Shown here piece by piece: positions 315-28,739 of a stretch of DNA of 30,432 nt. Position numbers and translations under genes: made by a program. Origin of the DNA: a virus; the IMG/VR virus record IMGVR_UViG_3300035698_000774, positions 1-30,432 of that record, one strand, 5' to 3'. The first letter of the stretch is position 1. Each line of letters starts with the position of its first letter. The notes under the pieces were generated by a model. The model was not told where the DNA came from. It was given only the letters and a program-made list of their open reading frames with translations, and searched no databases.

Positions 315-580
315 TCACTCTCCAATGCTTTTGCCAATTCTGCACACCAGCCTTTGCCCATTCTGCTATCTATTTGTAAAACTGATATTGATCTTTGTCT
401 GATATCATAATCAGCCGGACTATCTGCCGTTGTTTCGCCATCATCCAATGCTTTTAGTTGTTCCCATAATTCCTTCGCATGGCTGATCATATTAAAAGGA
501 TGCTCAGCATTTCCTGCGTTGTATGCGTCAAATAATTTAGTGTCTATTATCTTAATCGCTTGCTCATCACGTGTCATCAT
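311..580 (-). CDS. Hypothetical protein (89 aa)
   Basis: An 89-residue protein, probably all-helical, beginning MMTRDEQAIKIIDTK. The SD sequence AAGGAG lies upstream of two tandem ATGs. It overlaps the end of the 567-842 gene by 14 bases and the start of the 132-314 gene by 4 bases, so the three form one tight operon. I see no recognisable motif; there is one cysteine near the C-terminus (GKGWCAELAK). Function unknown. Confidence 0.6.
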   Translation of the reverse strand: MMTRDEQAIKIIDTKLFDAYNAGNAEHPFNMISHAKELWEQLKALDDGETTADSPADYDIRQRSISVLQIDSRMGKGWCAELAKALESE

Positions 581-842
581 GCACTCCTTGCGTAACCTTG
601 GCCTCTATAACAAATCTAAGTCCAATATGTTGACCATACTCTATAAGTTCTTGCAGAGTATCTCTATGTCCAAAATACCCCCAGCCTAAGCCAGTTTTCA
701 CAAGATATCCATCAGGTTCAAGTACTACCATTCCTTTAAGTCTACCTTTATCATCAATAACAAACATAGGTTTAAACTTAGCGGTACTATCCTTAAAGTA
801 AATTTCCTTCTGCTCTGTCTTCTTTAATATTAAAGTTTTCAT
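567..842 (-). CDS. Hypothetical protein (91 aa), first gene after a candidate promoter and leader
   Basis: A 91-residue protein beginning MKTLILKKTEQK, with a GAGAGGTG ribosome binding site just upstream. The first third is lysine-rich with alternating hydrophobic residues (beta-like), followed by a Gly/Tyr-rich turn (GLGWGYFGHRD) and a helix. It is the first gene downstream of a leader of about 165 bases that starts at the candidate phage promoter at 1007-1027, so it may be expressed more strongly than its neighbours. No family recognised. Confidence 0.6.
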   Translation of the reverse strand: MKTLILKKTEQKEIYFKDSTAKFKPMFVIDDKGRLKGMVVLEPDGYLVKTGLGWGYFGHRDTLQELIEYGQHIGLRFVIEAKVTQGVHDDT

Positions 843-1006: not shown

Positions 1007-1027
1007 CTAGTATACGCCCTAGCTCAT
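1004..1027 (-). promoter_or_regulatory. Candidate phage RNA polymerase promoter, copy 1
   Basis: The 21 bases at 1007-1027 match 28495-28515 at 20 of 21 positions. On the minus strand the shared core reads ATGAGCTA, then G or T, then GGCGTATACTAG, followed by purines (GAGGAA here). Both copies cover the stop codon of the gene before them and are followed by a non-coding leader. A TATACT hexamer is present but I find no -35 hexamer at 16-18 bases, so a host sigma-70 promoter is less likely than a single-subunit phage polymerase site. The ACTAG-purine end is loosely like the initiation region of T7/SP6 promoters. Confidence 0.55.
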
Positions 1028-1188
1028 TATGGCCCTAGATCGACCTCTGTGTCCATTACGTGATATACCTTGAATTCACCCTTTCCAAAGTTCTTATCGG
1101 TTATATTCTGTACTTCTTCTAGATTAAAATATTCAAAACAAAAGAAGGTATTATCACCATCTTTAGACATTACCCTTACCATCAACAT
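1027..1188 (-). CDS. Hypothetical small protein (53 aa)
   Basis: I read an ORF from the ATG at 1188 to TAA at 1027-1029, starting MLMVRVMSKDGDNTFFCF. The ribosome binding site AAAGGAGAAG is one of the best in this block. It overlaps the 3' end of the basic 41-residue gene (1163-1288) by 26 bases in another frame. The strong SD and well-formed acidic-aromatic composition argue that both frames are used. No family recognised. Its stop codon lies inside the candidate promoter at 1007-1027. Confidence 0.6.
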   Translation of the reverse strand: MLMVRVMSKDGDNTFFCFEYFNLEEVQNITDKNFGKGEFKVYHVMDTEVDLGP

Positions 1189-2860: not shown

Positions 2861-3063
2861 TATGTTTGCTCTCCTTCTATTATTTCGAATCTTGACAAAT
2901 GGCATGAAGCAATCTTATGTCCTTCTGAATCATAGGCAGTAGCATATGGAGCTCCCCCAAATGTACCATCTGAAATTTCAATATCATAGATTGTACCAGC
3001 TTCTAATATATACTCATACCCCCCACGCTGTTGCACGTTAAATTTAGCTTTTACTGTATTCAT
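2860..3063 (-). CDS. Small beta-rich protein (67 aa)
   Basis: A 67-residue protein starting MNTVKAKFNVQQRGGYEYI. Alternating hydrophobic residues, Gly-rich turns and the phrase GTIYDIEISDGTFGGAPYA suggest a small beta-barrel such as an SH3-like fold. Its start overlaps the stop of the GP88-family gene (ATGA). Function unknown. Confidence 0.6.
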   Translation of the reverse strand: MNTVKAKFNVQQRGGYEYILEAGTIYDIEISDGTFGGAPYATAYDSEGHKIASCHLSRFEIIEGEQT

Positions 3064-3713
3064 GCGACACTCCTTTCTAGTTTAATTCTTATTACTTTAT
3101 GCATGCTCAGACCATGTGCTGGATAGGCAATAACCTTGACATCCTTAGACCAACATGCTCGACACGTTCCGCACTTGCCATTATTGTTATAAGCTTGGCA
3201 AAGTGTTTGACCAACAGCTAATTCAGCCGGACTTGGTACGATTGTGCTAGTGGTTTTACCTGCAATTTCAATACCTTCGACGCTATCACTTGACAATCTA
3301 ACAACGACATTTGGTAGCTTCTCCATTAGCTTAATTATAGTTCTAAACTTGGCGAACTTATGCATCCTTGTGGGTAGCCAGTGGTTACAATGAGGTGTTC
3401 TAGTCATTACATCTAACATTTTACGAGCTAGCTTGATTGTATACATATCACCGCTATCAAACCATCTAAAATAGCGATCATTATCTAATTCAGCTACCAT
3501 TTCATCAACCCACTCGTTACGCTTCCAGTCGGTTTGATTATGGATTCTAGGTGCTTTCACATTAGGAAACCGGTAGTTCCCCGTGGTTGCATAACAGCCC
3601 TTACAAGCGTCTACAAGCTCTCCATCGGCCCCTTTTGAAGCAGGGCATGTGTCTATAGCTTGTAATGACCACGACCTACATGGCATCTTACTTGCTTTGC
3701 TTAATTTAATCAT
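3060..3713 (-). CDS. GP88-family cysteine-rich phage protein
   Basis: A 217-residue protein with an AGGAG ribosome binding site. It has two cysteine groups: C12, C23, C37 and C40 in the N-terminal part, ending in the phrase ACKGCYATTGNY, and C172, C181, C184 and C187 in GKCGTCRACW near the C-terminus. Between them is RWFDSGDM (83-90). This layout matches what I know as the 'gene product 88' family (PF17338), found widely in phages and mobile elements with no proven function. The cysteines could hold an iron-sulfur cluster or zinc. It resembles the N-terminal region of DUF5131 (Gp37/Gp68) radical-SAM-like proteins, but that link is tentative. Neighbours are small uncharacterised genes. Confidence 0.75.
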   Translation of the reverse strand: MIKLSKASKMPCRSWSLQAIDTCPASKGADGELVDACKGCYATTGNYRFPNVKAPRIHNQTDWKRNEWVDEMVAELDNDRYFRWFDSGDMYTIKLARKMLDVMTRTPHCNHWLPTRMHKFAKFRTIIKLMEKLPNVVVRLSSDSVEGIEIAGKTTSTIVPSPAELAVGQTLCQAYNNNGKCGTCRACWSKDVKVIAYPAHGLSMHKVIRIKLERSVA

Positions 3714-4325: not shown

Positions 4326-4670
4326 TTAGTGCTCCTGATTTGCTAATTGAATGATACTTAGCAAGCACCATTTAGCTAGCAAACTAGCTAGAGGTTTAGC
4401 TTACAATCTAGTATACTACTGACACGCTGTATCTGTGTTCATGTTCGTGCTATGATTGTTTGACTAAACTTTTAGAACTTGGTGGCTGGCTATTAGTCCG
4501 ACTCTATCGGTAGCTCACTTCACTTCAAGTGCAACCCCTTTATTTGATTTTGCAGTAAGGTTAAAAAATCTGCATGTTCTATCGGCTTTATAGCGTAGCT
4601 AACTTGCCTCTGGTTACCGGCTTGTTGTTGCCGTGTTTCCATGGTGCCCATTCTACCAACCTAGGAAATT
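4326..4670. promoter_or_regulatory. Gene-free upstream region of the early-like block
   Basis: No supported gene in either strand. On the minus strand, CTAGTATAC at 4408-4416 repeats the core of the candidate phage promoter but not its flanks. A perfect 7-bp stem, TAGCTAG-CAAA-CTAGCTA (4373-4390), follows it in the leader of the 4325 gene. A TTGCAC hexamer near 4535 (minus strand) might be a host -35 element, but no matching -10 is clear. By position, host-type early promoters would be expected here. I found no tRNA. Confidence 0.35.
4373..4390 (-). promoter_or_regulatory. Perfect 7-bp stem-loop in the leader of the first early-like gene
   Basis: TAGCTAG (4373-4379) and CTAGCTA (4384-4390) form a perfect stem around a 4-base loop. 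It lies about 50 bases upstream of the ATG at 4325 and just downstream of the partial promoter core at 4408-4416. It may protect the 5' end of a leader transcript. There is no U-run. Confidence 0.35.
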
Positions 4671-4925
4671 AAATATATATACCCCCAATGGGATATCCCG
4701 ATGGACGGTAGTATTGCCTCGAAAGATATAGAACGCCCACGCGATCCTTATACGTGCCCACGCGATAACAATCACGCGTAGCAAGAACCATGCCAGAAAG
4801 AAAAAACAGAGACATGCAAGACTCGTGCCAAGGTTGTAGTCTTAACCGCATGTGTACCCGATGGACAACCGCATGTGCACGGTACTCAATACACCCCACC
4901 ACAGACCCATGCAAGATCCATGCCA
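4671..4925. repeat. Short direct repeats flanking the DnaA-box array
   Basis: This stretch holds several pairs of short direct repeats: GCCCACGCGAT at 4735 and 4756 (21-base offset, about two helical turns), AACCGCATGTG at 4844 and 4867, and a longer imperfect pair beginning CATGCAAGA at 4813 and 4909. An AT-only run, ATTAAATATATATA, sits at its left edge near 4669-4682. Composition changes sharply here towards more G+C than the neighbouring genes. No protein-coding signal is convincing. Confidence 0.5.
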
Positions 4926-4932
4926 ACCCCAG

Positions 4933-5074
4933 TTACCCACAGGTTACCCACAGGTTATCCACAGGCTCCCCCAAAGGTTACCCACAGGTTACCCACAGGT
5001 TATCCACAGGTTACCCATAGGTTATCCACAGGCTCCCCCATGGTTATCCACAGGTTACCCACAGGTTACCCATA
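4933..5074 (+). repeat. Tandem array of 11 DnaA-box-like 9-mers with 11-bp period
   Basis: Eleven 9-mers in the same orientation, mostly joined by GG. Exact TTATCCACA occurs at 4955, 5000, 5022 and 5044. TTACCCACA (one change) occurs at 4933, 4944, 4978, 4989 and 5055. TTACCCATA (two changes) occurs at 5011 and 5066. Spacing is 11 bases within three runs of 3, 5 and 3 boxes. The runs are split by two related C-rich spacers, CTCCCCCAAAGG (4966-4977) and CTCCCCCATGG (5033-5043). TTATCCACA is the strongest E. coli DnaA site (box R1/R4 of oriC). The period is close to one helical turn, so all boxes would face nearly the same side. Possible roles are a replication origin, DnaA titration, or a terminal repeat used in concatemer processing, as at T7 ends. 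Confidence 0.85.
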
Positions 5075-5217
5075 GTGTACAACAGGTGGACACTATGTGT
5101 ACAACAGGTGGACAGCATGTGGACAACCCATGGACAACCCTAGGTGTACATGCCTGTACAATAGAGAGTATAGTGGCCTTGTAGCATGTACGTACCATGT
5201 ACAGAAATAGTTGTACA
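5075..5217. repeat. Cluster of TGTACA palindromes and GTGTACAACAGGTGGACA direct repeats
   Basis: TGTACA, a 6-base palindrome, occurs six times: 5076, 5098, 5145, 5155, 5198 and 5212, plus a TGTACG at 5187. An 18-base direct repeat begins at 5075 and again at 5097 (22-base offset, two turns of the array period). TGTGGACAA at 5118 is one change from a DnaA box on the other strand. The cluster continues directly from the DnaA-box array, so the two may form one site. Confidence 0.6.
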
Positions 5218-5812: not shown

Positions 5813-8050
5813 CTATAAGGTTAAGTCTTCTATTCCGTCTTTAATAAGATCAGATACAAGATCAGTTATATAGGCTTTCTCACCTAAGTTAGCTACGTTA
5901 CCGTTAGCAGTAATTGTTACATTGTCTATAGTGAGACTTACAGTACCCACAACAGGCCCAGTAGGAACAAATGCTCCTGTACCACTTGATGTGATATCAG
6001 ATAAAGTATTAGCTACAGATCCGTTGAAGTCTTGTCCACCAGCACCAGACATGGTAAAGTCATCCAAGGTTACCCCTAGGAAGCCATCGGTGGCATAAGA
6101 GCCTGTGGCTGATCCTGTGGTGTCTCCTAGGGTTATCCCGAGGGAGCCTATGGTTATGACCTCACCAGATGAGCTTAGAGACACGCTGTCTAAGGTTAAC
6201 CCAAGTGTACCACTGTACCCATGAAGTCCTGTTATAGAGGATGTGACAGAGTCCAAAGTTACAGATACACTGCCAGTAACACCAGATCCAAAGGATCCAG
6301 TACCAGACATGGTAGTATCTTCTATTGTTAGCGACACAGTACCTTCTGTCAGAAGGCTGCCTGTAATGTCACTTGTAACATCATCTAGAGTTGTGTTACC
6401 AGATCCGACTGCTGCCATGACTCCTGTTATTGAGCTAGTGACATCATCGGCTGTTATAGAGATAGTACCGTTGGTTTTGTATGTTGCAGTGATAGAACTT
6501 GTATAGTCGTCCAAGGTTAACCCTAGGGATCCACTATACTCATGTACAGCTGTTATGCTACTTGTCATAGCATCTAATGTAATAGAGACTGTACCAGTAA
6601 CCACTGGGCCTGTGTACGTGGCTGTGATAGCCGATGTAACATTGTCCAAGGTTTCACTTACGGTTCCCGTAGGGGAACTGACAGCCTTCTGTAAGGCCAG
6701 CACAAATGTACCCCAGTTAGTATTACCACCAGCCCCGTTAAGAGTTATTGTTCCAGCCTGTGCAGCTGCGGTTGTCTGTAGTGCTTGACCGAAGCCACCA
6801 GCACTTGATGCCGCACCCGATCCATCTACACCGTTGTCATTATCCATGACTTCAGTTAAAGGACTTGGGAAGGTATTAATTACACCAACACCATTACCAC
6901 CATCTTCCTGACCCATGAAGGCCACAACCATACAGTTATCTTCTGTAGGAGTTAATGAGGTAAGTACAGCAGAGGTATCCGATCCACCTGTGTTTGAGTT
7001 AGAGGAGTCTATAGCACTTACATTTCTATATACGACTAAGCAGCCCCAAGCTCTCTCACTCGCAGAAGTAGTAAAGGTGTAACTTGCAGGTTCACTTGAG
7101 GCAACCCTGTAGGACAACCTGTTAGAACTTGAACCAGCAGTATTGTGATTCTGTAAAGCAGTAAAGCCAGTTAGTAAGTTACATCTATCTGCACCATCAG
7201 AACTATGGAAGGCAATAATATAATCACCATCAACAGTACCCGCAGGTACATTAATGACCATGCTAGTTGTATTGTTCTGACTGTTAGCGTTCTCACCTAT
7301 ACGTACAATGTCTGGGTTAGGTGGAGCAGTATGTGTTGCCGTAATAGCACTTGTAACATTGTCCAAAGTAACATCAAGACCTTCAGGTGATGAGCTACTA
7401 AGTACAAAGGATATCTGAGCCATACTGTCTGAGTCATCAGCACTGGCTACAGCAGTTACAGTTCCACCAGTGAAGTTATCAGCAGTGGACATTAATGCTT
7501 CAAAACTATTTGAGTACTGTTCATCAGTCTCAGTAGTTCCTGTCCAACCTATCGAACCAATGCCACCACCGTTATCAAAACCAATGACAGCTGATATAGT
7601 TGCATCATCGGCATCTACAGATCCCATAGCACAGCTTGTATCTACATTGACGCCCCCATTACTATCAGTTACTACATTAGTGAACATTACCGCTTGGTCA
7701 CCTACACCTGAATAACTAGTTGCTTCTATTACATGAGAACTGAAACCATTAACGGCATCAGTAGTTACTAGGTTAGTTCCACTTGCAGCAGCAATGCCTG
7801 CATCATTGATAGCAAATGCAGAAAGTCGCACCTTACCACCAGCACCCGCAGGTGACTCGATGGCATCTACTTCAGTCATTGTTTGACCACCATAAGTCAT
7901 GGTAGGAGCAAAGGTTCCAGTATCGTTATACTCACCAGCAAAGGCGACAAGCACCCGATCAGTACCAGCACTAACTGTCTTGCTAAAACTAAATTCAGAA
8001 GAACCCGATGGGCCTGAACTTGTATCAGCGTCTAATACTGCTACTGCCAT
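5813..8050 (-). CDS. Large repeat-containing adhesin or fiber-like virion protein (745 aa)
   Basis: A 745-residue protein with a GAGG ribosome binding site. Residues 1-225 and 245-455 look like two related beta-sandwich domains, each with phrases of the type RVLVAFAGEYND or DYIIAFHSSDGAD and a later cysteine-containing segment. A short repeat, consensus GTVSLTLDDVTSSITG, occurs once at about 225-240 between the domains. It then occurs about 12 more times from residue 461 to about 730. The last 15-20 residues are a different, acidic tail. There is no signal peptide. The layout suggests an elongated stalk with two binding domains. Its location among small structural-looking genes after the terminase suggests a second receptor-binding or decorating protein beside the tail fiber at 12735-14237. 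This is inference from composition and context. Confidence 0.6.
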   Translation of the reverse strand: MAVAVLDADTSSGPSGSSEFSFSKTVSAGTDRVLVAFAGEYNDTGTFAPTMTYGGQTMTEVDAIESPAGAGGKVRLSAFAINDAGIAAASGTNLVTTDAVNGFSSHVIEATSYSGVGDQAVMFTNVVTDSNGGVNVDTSCAMGSVDADDATISAVIGFDNGGGIGSIGWTGTTETDEQYSNSFEALMSTADNFTGGTVTAVASADDSDSMAQISFVLSSSSPEGLDVTLDNVTSAITATHTAPPNPDIVRIGENANSQNNTTSMVINVPAGTVDGDYIIAFHSSDGADRCNLLTGFTALQNHNTAGSSSNRLSYRVASSEPASYTFTTSASERAWGCLVVYRNVSAIDSSNSNTGGSDTSAVLTSLTPTEDNCMVVAFMGQEDGGNGVGVINTFPSPLTEVMDNDNGVDGSGAASSAGGFGQALQTTAAAQAGTITLNGAGGNTNWGTFVLALQKAVSSPTGTVSETLDNVTSAITATYTGPVVTGTVSITLDAMTSSITAVHEYSGSLGLTLDDYTSSITATYKTNGTISITADDVTSSITGVMAAVGSGNTTLDDVTSDITGSLLTEGTVSLTIEDTTMSGTGSFGSGVTGSVSVTLDSVTSSITGLHGYSGTLGLTLDSVSLSSSGEVITIGSLGITLGDTTGSATGSYATDGFLGVTLDDFTMSGAGGQDFNGSVANTLSDITSSGTGAFVPTGPVVGTVSLTIDNVTITANGNVANLGEKAYITDLVSDLIKDGIEDLTL
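5860..6670 (-). repeat. Tandem protein repeats in the adhesin gene (about 12 units)
   Basis: Codons for residues about 461-730 of the 745-residue protein encode degenerate units of 16-28 residues around [ST]-[IV]-TLD-x-[VMYF]-TSS-[IA]-T-[AG]. Well-kept units include GTVSITLDAMTSSITAVH, GSLGLTLDDYTSSITATY and GSVSVTLDSVTSSITGLH. Diverged ones include GTVSLTIEDTTMSGTGSF. Repeat number could change by recombination or slippage. Confidence 0.65.
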
Positions 8051-25707: not shown

Positions 25708-27261
25708 TTATGCTCCTTGTTGTGGTGGTTGACCTTGTTGTCCTCCACCTTGTTGCTGCTGAATTGCAGCTTGTAATAATTGTTTGACTACTTCAGGGCC
25801 AACCTCTTGAATCATTGCTTGAAGTTGTGCATCCTGAGTTGCAGCACTAGCTTCCTCATTACTTATTAATAGACCTGAGGTATCTAGGTTAACAGCAGCA
25901 CCAATACGTTTAGAGATTTCATCTACATCAAATCGAGGTAGTAGTTGTTCTAACAATGGTGGTGGTATTAATTGGAAGTATGCTTGTAGTTTCTGTAAGT
26001 CAGCATTACGTCCAAGAGCTTGTAGCCCAGTTAATATTTGAACATCAACAGTATCAGCTGGTAGTGAGGGTAGTTTTCCACTCTTCTCCAGATCTTTAGA
26101 TACTAGTTTAACTAGTGGTAATTGGAAATCTTCCGATAGTTGACTAAAGATTCCACCTAGGGTGTCATCAATGTCTTCTGCTACTCGTCTGATTTCTTCA
26201 GCAGTCACACGTTCAGCATCACGTTGTACAGCTTGTTGCATTAAGAATGCGAACTGTAATCTTTGAGCTATTTCCTGTGCTGTTTCTTGGGCTACTCTAA
26301 AGTCTGCAAACTTCTCAAGTTGTAGTACGGATACATCATCTGCATTGCCGGAGACTACACTACCGTTAGCTTTCTCTAGTTCCCTTACGGATGTACTTCC
26401 ACCTTGTCTAACAAAGTATATAATCTTTGCAGCCGCAGCAGAGCCTTCAACCAACGCACGAGATAATTCCTCATGTGATTTAAGGTCGCCGTAATATTCT
26501 TCAACATGTCCACGAGCATAGTCTTCACCGTCAACCCAGTTCCACCCTAAGATAAGGTATGGTAGATTCTCTTCAGTGTGTAGACCTTCGTTCTGACCTG
26601 TAAGTCTTTCATTGATTTCTTGGAAGACTCTATACTTACCAGAAGGCTCACGCACTATGGTAGTATACATATCTATATCATCGTCTTGCTTCTTACCACT
26701 ACCTACAATATCTACTGCCTCTTGGACATCTTTAGATAGTGCACTGACTGTAGTAGTTTCTTTTATAATTACTTCTAAGAGCTTGTGATCGGGTGTGAAG
26801 TGTTGGACGTATTGATTAAGGTAGAACACTCTAAATCTTTTTTTCTGTCCTTGATAGCCCAGTATGACGTTACCACCAACAATAAGATGACGCAGACCGT
26901 CAACCAACGGGACACGGATTCCAGTGACGTTGATTGCTCGGCTAATGCTTCGTTCGATTTTTGCCAGTGCTTCATCTACTCCACCTTTCTTGCCACCAGT
27001 AAGTTCAGCTTCAACGAACTCATCAATGGTATATCTGAAGAAAGGATCACCAGCAGGCATTAGTATTAATGCTAGCTTGGCAGCTAATGTGTTTACACCT
27101 CGTGCACCAATACCTTGATAAGGTGTAGGTAACACAGACTCTTGTGAATGACCATCAGGAACTATCAAAGAGGGAATTGTTAGTTCTGATGCTGCTCGTG
27201 CTCGACGTAAGGCTGGCTCACGCTTGGCAGCGAGTTTATCGTACCTCTTTTTTGCTGACAT
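25708..27261 (-). CDS. Portal (head-tail connector) protein, T7 gp8-like
   Basis: 517 residues (T7 gp8 is 536). The start MSAKKRYDKLAAKREPALRRA is typical, followed by the N-terminal SLIVPDGHSQESVLPTPYQGIGARGVNTLAAKLALILMPAGDPFFR (about 31-77), and the middle GLHTEENLPYLILGWNWVDGEDYARGHVEEYYGDLKSHEELSRA. ERVTAEEIRRVAEDIDDTLGGIFSQLSEDFQLPLV (about 360-393) is the conserved crown-side helix region. The end is Gln/Gly-rich (QQQQGGGQQGQPPQQG). A dodecameric ring at the unique vertex is expected. The ATG overlaps the previous stop (TAATG). Confidence 0.95.
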   Translation of the reverse strand: MSAKKRYDKLAAKREPALRRARAASELTIPSLIVPDGHSQESVLPTPYQGIGARGVNTLAAKLALILMPAGDPFFRYTIDEFVEAELTGGKKGGVDEALAKIERSISRAINVTGIRVPLVDGLRHLIVGGNVILGYQGQKKRFRVFYLNQYVQHFTPDHKLLEVIIKETTTVSALSKDVQEAVDIVGSGKKQDDDIDMYTTIVREPSGKYRVFQEINERLTGQNEGLHTEENLPYLILGWNWVDGEDYARGHVEEYYGDLKSHEELSRALVEGSAAAAKIIYFVRQGGSTSVRELEKANGSVVSGNADDVSVLQLEKFADFRVAQETAQEIAQRLQFAFLMQQAVQRDAERVTAEEIRRVAEDIDDTLGGIFSQLSEDFQLPLVKLVSKDLEKSGKLPSLPADTVDVQILTGLQALGRNADLQKLQAYFQLIPPPLLEQLLPRFDVDEISKRIGAAVNLDTSGLLISNEEASAATQDAQLQAMIQEVGPEVVKQLLQAAIQQQQGGGQQGQPPQQGA

Positions 27262-28230: not shown

Positions 28231-28410
28231 TTATAAATTCTCAGGTTCGTCGGGATCGTCGATGCGAGCTTGAATATGCTTAACGACATGAGCACAACCG
28301 GCATTAAACCAGATCATTCTTTCATCGTCTTTGATATTCGGGCATCTATCAGGGAAGGACACTCGCAGCTGTTCAACTAATAGCTCGAATGTATGGGGTA
28401 AGGGTTGCAT
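28231..28410 (-). CDS. Hypothetical small protein (59 aa)
   Basis: ATG at 28410 with TGGAGCAC upstream, 59 residues starting MQPLPHTFELLVEQLRVSF. The chain is mostly helical, with CPNIKDDERMIWFNAGCAHVVKHIQ and an acidic end. It is the first gene downstream of the candidate phage promoter at 28495-28515, after a leader of about 85 bases. No family recognised. Confidence 0.6.
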   Translation of the reverse strand: MQPLPHTFELLVEQLRVSFPDRCPNIKDDERMIWFNAGCAHVVKHIQARIDDPDEPENL

Positions 28411-28494
28411 AATGTGCTCCAGTGAATCCCCCCGTTGCAGGGGGTGTACGATAGGGTATAGTGTATCCTATGGGATAGAATAGCGTTCTCTCTT
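28411..28494 (-). promoter_or_regulatory. Leader with a GC-rich stem-loop
   Basis: Between the candidate promoter and the ATG at 28410. A C-run and a G-run (28428-28433 and 28440-28444) make a 5-bp all-GC stem with a 6-7-base loop about 20 bases from the start codon. TATCC and GGATA (28463-28476 region) form a second short stem. On the minus strand CACTATACCCTATCGTACA resembles the CACTATA core of T7-class promoters and a similar run near 5157-5177; this is weak. The GC stem may mask or stabilise the leader. Confidence 0.35.
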
Positions 28495-28515
28495 CTAGTA
28501 TACGCCATAGCTCAT
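28495..28515 (-). promoter_or_regulatory. Candidate phage RNA polymerase promoter, copy 2
   Basis: Minus strand ATGAGCTATGGCGTATACTAG followed by AAGAGAGAAC, differing from the copy at 1007-1027 at one of 21 positions. As in the first copy, it covers the stop codon of the preceding gene (TGA at 28512-28514). It would drive the portal-to-terminase block. The purine-rich +1 region and lack of a -35 hexamer argue for a phage-type polymerase. Confidence 0.55.
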
Positions 28516-28530
28516 AGAACTATTCTATGA
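28512..28530 (-). other. Perfect 8-bp hairpin next to the candidate promoter
   Basis: TCATAGAA (28512-28519) and TTCTATGA (28523-28530) are perfect inverted repeats around a 3-base loop. They cover the last codons of the 28512-28739 gene and overlap the upstream edge of the promoter motif. They could end or process the upstream transcript or bind a regulator. No U-run follows. Confidence 0.45.
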
Positions 28531-28739
28531 ACCTCATTAGGCCAAACAGTTTTATCGTAATCGGCCTTCTTATAGGCTGTCAAGTGAGTCCACCGCTTAG
28601 GGTATATGATATCCCCGAAGGTAAAATGAGTGGTCTTAACTTTGTAGGGTTCCCCTGTATAGTTTACTAATGCACTACGGGCAGTGCCCTTCAGGCTGGC
28701 TACTGCTATCATTACTATCGGCTCGTCTGTTTCCTTCAA
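28512..28739 (-). CDS. Hypothetical small protein (up to 75 aa), start uncertain
   Basis: The longest version begins at a TTG at 28739, with GGAGAG 7 bases upstream, inside the end of the DUF3310 gene (65-base overlap). The first ATG is at 28712 but has no close ribosome binding site. The sequence after it, MIAVASLKGTARSALVNYTGEPYK, is mixed alpha/beta. It is read in a different frame from the DUF3310 gene. No family recognised. Confidence 0.5.
   Translation of the reverse strand: MKETDEPIVMIAVASLKGTARSALVNYTGEPYKVKTTHFTFGDIIYPKRWTHLTAYKKADYDKTVWPNEVHRIVL

Follow-up and report, generated by a model that had tools for sequence, protein, structure and literature searches.

The question raised by this locus is what a short sequence, ATGAGCTANGGCGTATACTAG, might do when it stands twice on the minus (coding) strand of a single phage record. 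The window, i.e. the whole stretch of DNA that was analysed, comprises 30,432 bases and is the entire virus record; the copies lie at 1027-1007 (site A, ATGAGCTAGGGCGTATACTAG) and at 28515-28495 (site B, ATGAGCTATGGCGTATACTAG), and are identical at 20 of 21 bases. From their sequence and position we conclude that both are very probably T7-type promoters for a phage RNA polymerase (RNAP). The same reading had been offered by a first-pass annotation of this DNA, and gains support here from the motifs of related phages, which occupy the same places and align with the window sites on the +1 G. It is the combination of the repeat statistics, the placement, and the in-register likeness to relatives' promoters that leads us to this reading.

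The match between the two sites, as first annotated, was reproduced by pattern search and by shuffling. Outside a tandem array at 4.9-5.1 kb, A and B form the only 20/21 direct-repeat pair in the window, and when the whole window was dinucleotide-shuffled 200 times, a direct repeat this good arose once, which puts the chance at about 0.005 for the repeat alone, before placement is considered. The annotation had called this chance tiny for 30 kb; it is low, yet not vanishing. Identity breaks sharply at both ends, and the flanks of A and B are unrelated (GCCATA and AGTTCT upstream, GAGGAA and AAGAGA downstream, respectively). More copies had been expected elsewhere, an expectation that failed within this record: a search of its full length with up to three mismatches returned only A and B (the same pattern was seen in 0 of 100 shuffles), and no looser matches, between 14 and 19 of 21, were present in the window. 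A shortened core (GTATACTAG) annotated at 4408-4416 was likewise rejected as a third copy, being at chance level: its exact sequence turned up in 77 of 300 one-strand shuffles, and the 12-bp core was matched as well as at 4408 in 189 of 300.

With regard to gene context, each site covers a stop codon and is oriented with transcription, as previously described, the minus strand carrying essentially every gene of the record. Site A (1007-1027, minus strand) overlaps the TAA (1029-1027) of a 53-aa open reading frame (ORF) read from the sequence (1027-1188, minus strand), with an additional TGA at 1026-1024, and site B (28495-28515, minus strand) contains the TGA (28514-28512) of a 75-aa ORF (28512-28739, minus strand). 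The first gene downstream of A is a 91-aa ORF without a family match (567-842, minus strand), followed by further small genes (at least three in all) and not directly by an RNAP gene; the first gene downstream of B is a 59-aa ORF (28231-28410, minus strand, read from the sequence) that stands ahead of the portal block. A chance repeat, or a functionless duplication of a short segment, would be in keeping with the one shuffled window in 200 that holds a repeat this good; we regard it as highly improbable, given that each copy covers a stop codon and is oriented with transcription, and that one of them sits in a slot where every one of the ten relatives with a clear family has a copy.

The predicted transcripts would begin with leaders at 843-1006 (A) and 28411-28494 (B), both on the minus strand. 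Both had been annotated as structured, which holds only in part: leader A, which carries a palindromic CCTTAGGGTAACCCGAGGTTAACCTTAGG element (within 871-924), folds somewhat better than shuffled sequence (z about -2 for 878-1007; z -1.97, 5 of 200 shuffles), while leader B does not (z -0.47), despite a local CCCCCUG/CGGGGGG hairpin (CCCCCTG-CAA-CGGGGGG in DNA, 28444-28428) immediately ahead of the likely ribosome-binding site. Leader structure as a feature common to the two sites was accordingly rejected, B being at the shuffle level. These results also bear on the idea of an RNA-level element at gene ends, e.g. a processing site or terminator, which the location over stop codons and ahead of leaders with hairpins could suggest. 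No T run follows the motif, no Rfam match was obtained, and the folding of leader B is at or near chance level, so that we consider this reading close to negligible. As a separate observation, the palindromic CCTTAGGGTAACCCGAGGTTAACCTTAGG (minus strand, 867-938) groups with the 4.9-5.1 kb array in one repeat family.

The composition of the motif itself fits a promoter of the phage type. It ends in the AT-rich tetramer ACTA followed by a G, from which we infer +1 (G at 1007 for A and at 28495 for B, so that site A would span about -20 to +1), and the sequence continues into purines, GGAGGAA at A and GAAGAGAGAA at B, in agreement with the purine-rich start noted in the annotation. Written with a slash before the predicted start, the junctions read ACTA/GGAGGAA (A) and ACTA/GAAGAGAG (B). 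Host sigma-70 promoters would be a more conventional explanation, and a scan of the site A region did find a TGGACA-N18-CATAAT match (10/12) overlapping the upstream end of A. Matches of this quality are, however, at chance level in that region (24 found vs 18.6 expected), this one lies outside the 21-bp identity except for its last bases, and a host promoter has no need of 20 identical bases, which makes a sigma-70 origin extremely unlikely.

If the sites are phage-RNAP promoters, as we favor, the gene content of the record should be considered. Judged by its sequence, the source genome is an incomplete one of a T7-like (Autographiviridae-type) phage: the best matches of its proteins are in Autographiviridae, at ~45-56% identity, and it encodes a T7 gp6-type exonuclease as well as late genes for portal, scaffold, capsid, two tail tube proteins, internal virion protein, tail fibre and terminase large subunit. 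The T7 gp8-like portal (head-tail adaptor) gene (25708-27261, minus strand; phrog_449, E 1.6e-154) belongs to the late genes that would be driven from B. At the other end, beyond a noncoding stretch, the left 4.2 kb opens with small genes and a GP88 family gene, an early-block marker (3060-3713, minus strand; PF17338, E 3.5e-31). In the phages CRP-125 and CRP-113 a GP88 relative sits in the same place, right past the noncoding end region and ahead of the early genes leading to RNAP, and we therefore took 4188-1 to be the early block. The section from RNAP to DNA polymerase is absent from the incomplete record, and we would place it between the record's two ends. An RNAP gene, which the annotation had proposed to look for, was not found here: a Pfam RNA_pol search, whose search set was without a positive control, was negative, and the RNAP protein of Mesorhizobium phage Lo5R7ANS gave only a 76-aa, 13-bit match, taken as spurious, where the same query finds relatives at E < 1e-100. 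Close relatives of the window were detected neither by DNA nor by a single-protein IMG/VR scan using the portal, and the two Manatee Spring records whose GP88 genes come closest were rejected as relatives, being not T7-like.

Two other features of the record deserve mention in their own right. The tandem array (4920-5100) lies in a ~1.1-kb region between late and early genes that has no convincing genes of its own. It consists of ~15 head-to-tail copies of the 11-bp unit GGTTAYCCACA, several of them containing the E. coli DnaA box TTATCCACA, and may represent the genome end or terminal repeat, or else a region of replication. After the terminase, a 745-aa ORF (5813-8050) with internal repeats (VTSSITA-like units) and no Pfam match probably encodes a surface protein of the virion, and lies outside the T7 gene order usually seen.

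The relatives offer a guide to what the motif should look like and where it should stand. Prediction of promoters from such repeats, as in PHIRE, is common practice (e.g. PMC3080317), and when 15 related phages were searched blindly for repeated 20-mers, the top family of LUZ100, whose eight phage promoters were annotated from ONT-cappable-seq and are thus experimentally mapped (OP329100; PMC10134795), comprised seven of them, missing phi5, which is without the full motif. One lineage-specific family of ~20 bp each was recovered from RHEph01, RHEph21, CRP-113, CRP-125, CRP-227, CRP-804, BB8, YIMV22061 and Lo5R7ANS, with copies recurring right next to the RNAP gene (on one side or the other), downstream of lysozyme and of terminase, and ahead of the portal block. 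The pre-portal copy is present in 10 of the 10 relatives with a clear family (LUZ100 and the nine others). Its +1, taken as the motif's final G, falls 12-17 nt past the preceding stop in CRP-113, CRP-125, CRP-227, CRP-804, Lo5R7ANS and YIMV22061. In BB8 it coincides with the stop, in RHEph01 and RHEph21 the distance is 41-42 nt, and in LUZ100 it falls inside the preceding gene. Site B is in this slot, equivalent to that of LUZ100 phi6, with its predicted +1 17 nt past the stop codon. The simple repeat search gave no clean pre-portal motif in HTVC019P, ctgrD200, Pasto, CRP-403 and ProddE, and the window has no motif copy after terminase, though most relatives have one. A second repeated motif (CTATCCACCAGCGCATA-like) was also seen, mostly at gene ends, with six copies in LUZ100 (376-34511) and four in RHEph01 (553-24672), possibly terminators or processing sites.

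Anchored on the +1 G, the window sites (TAGGGCGTATACTA/GGAGG for A, TATGGCGTATACTA/GAAGA for B) align with the promoter motifs of Lo5R7ANS (TAGGGCCTCTACTA/GCACT), CRP-227 (TAGGTTGCACCTTA/GAGGA), BB8 (GAGGTTGCACAATA/GGATA) and LUZ100 phi6 (TACCACACAGTCTT/GGAGG). The closest is that of Lo5R7ANS, TAGGGCCTCTACTAG, itself only predicted, with 14 of 19 letters in common (empirical p about 0.003-0.005), a likeness equalled by 9 of 3000 random 22-mers from the window and 14 of 3000 shuffled motifs. Since the 45.7 kb of Lo5R7ANS hold only three clear copies, two in this fragment are not too few. Searches of IMG/VR and GTDB genomes returned no exact copy of the window motif, and none in a comparable setting in other sequences of these collections; ahead of the portal in 73 IMG/VR relatives the best match was 14 of 17 informative letters at one locus, which is not convincing. 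Two contigs matching a 17-letter sub-pattern were judged to be chance, the first match lying inside a long open frame for a putative tail tape-measure protein and the second having 2 mismatches in a 66-kb record.

A conserved slot could also serve a phage DNA-binding protein, e.g. a MarR-type repressor, with the motif as its operator and not the promoter itself. Genes for MarR and integrase are found in the early block of many relatives, such a repressor has been proposed for temperate T7-like relatives, with sites flanking the RNAP promoter (PMC10134795), and an inverted repeat, TCATAGAA-TAG-TTCTATGA, overlaps B on its upstream side. The motif itself is not an inverted repeat, though, that of B is absent at A, no MarR gene was seen in the fragment, and the placement and the +1-register match to promoters are specific; we judge an operator very unlikely. 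The inverted repeat (28511-28532, immediately upstream of and overlapping B) is recorded here as an observation. Also improbable, if somewhat less so, is a composite arrangement in which a phage regulator would bind the same sites that the phage RNAP uses as promoters. With very few promoters, such a sparse circuit would put the late block and a portion of its own early block under the polymerase, whose promoter specificity would be orthogonal to that of every T7-type polymerase described.

As promoters, then, the sites combine a sequence in the ~17-23 bp range, repeated on the transcribed strand (two copies, 20/21, minus), a gene-junction position conserved among relatives (site B, the pre-portal slot, ten relatives), and a predicted start at a G with purines just after ACTA, aligned with relatives. 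Each would be read by the phage's own single-subunit RNAP, which would recognize about -20 to -5, melt the helix at ACTA (-4 to -1) and initiate at the motif-final G (1007 or 28495), proceeding leftward into the purine-rich leaders. From site B it would express the late genes (portal, scaffold, capsid, tail, terminase). Starts at site A would occur within the early block, ahead of the missing RNAP/replication section, so that the polymerase is proposed to transcribe as far as its own gene, perhaps that gene too. The lineage has a promoter sequence of its own, a new version of a kind of signal that is well known and ordinary for such viruses; taken by itself, this window shows nothing unusual. 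Its wider interest is that an uncultured T7-like lineage gains a predicted promoter whose specificity is probably new, and that of slots (pre-portal, beside RNAP, after lysozyme, after terminase) that stay fixed across phages with diverged promoter sequences. Promoters, and hence RNAP specificity, should therefore be predictable for many environmental phages, and the fixed slots may yield orthogonal RNAP-promoter pairs for expression systems.

Compared with known systems, the window sites share a general shape with T7 promoters (TAATACGACTCACTATAGGGAGA), which are compact, have no -10/-35 elements, place an AT-rich melting region before a purine start, and stand at gene junctions; there is no clear sequence identity beyond this shape, and T7 has many more copies. 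The LUZ100 phi promoters are alike in being of the single-subunit RNAP type, ~17-20 bp long with a purine-rich start, and in having phi6 in the same pre-portal slot as B, and differ in sequence (AATTACCACACAG..TGGA), in their number (eight sites, some before capsid or after terminase), and in having been mapped experimentally. Nearest is the putative family of Lo5R7ANS (KM199771), for which experimental mapping was not found in the literature: its copies also stand after RNAP and after terminase, and its upstream half differs, whereas TAGGGCCTCTACTAG resembles the window's TA(G/T)GGCGTATACTAG, its copies are few (three), and the pre-portal one lies 16 nt past a stop codon, much as site B does.
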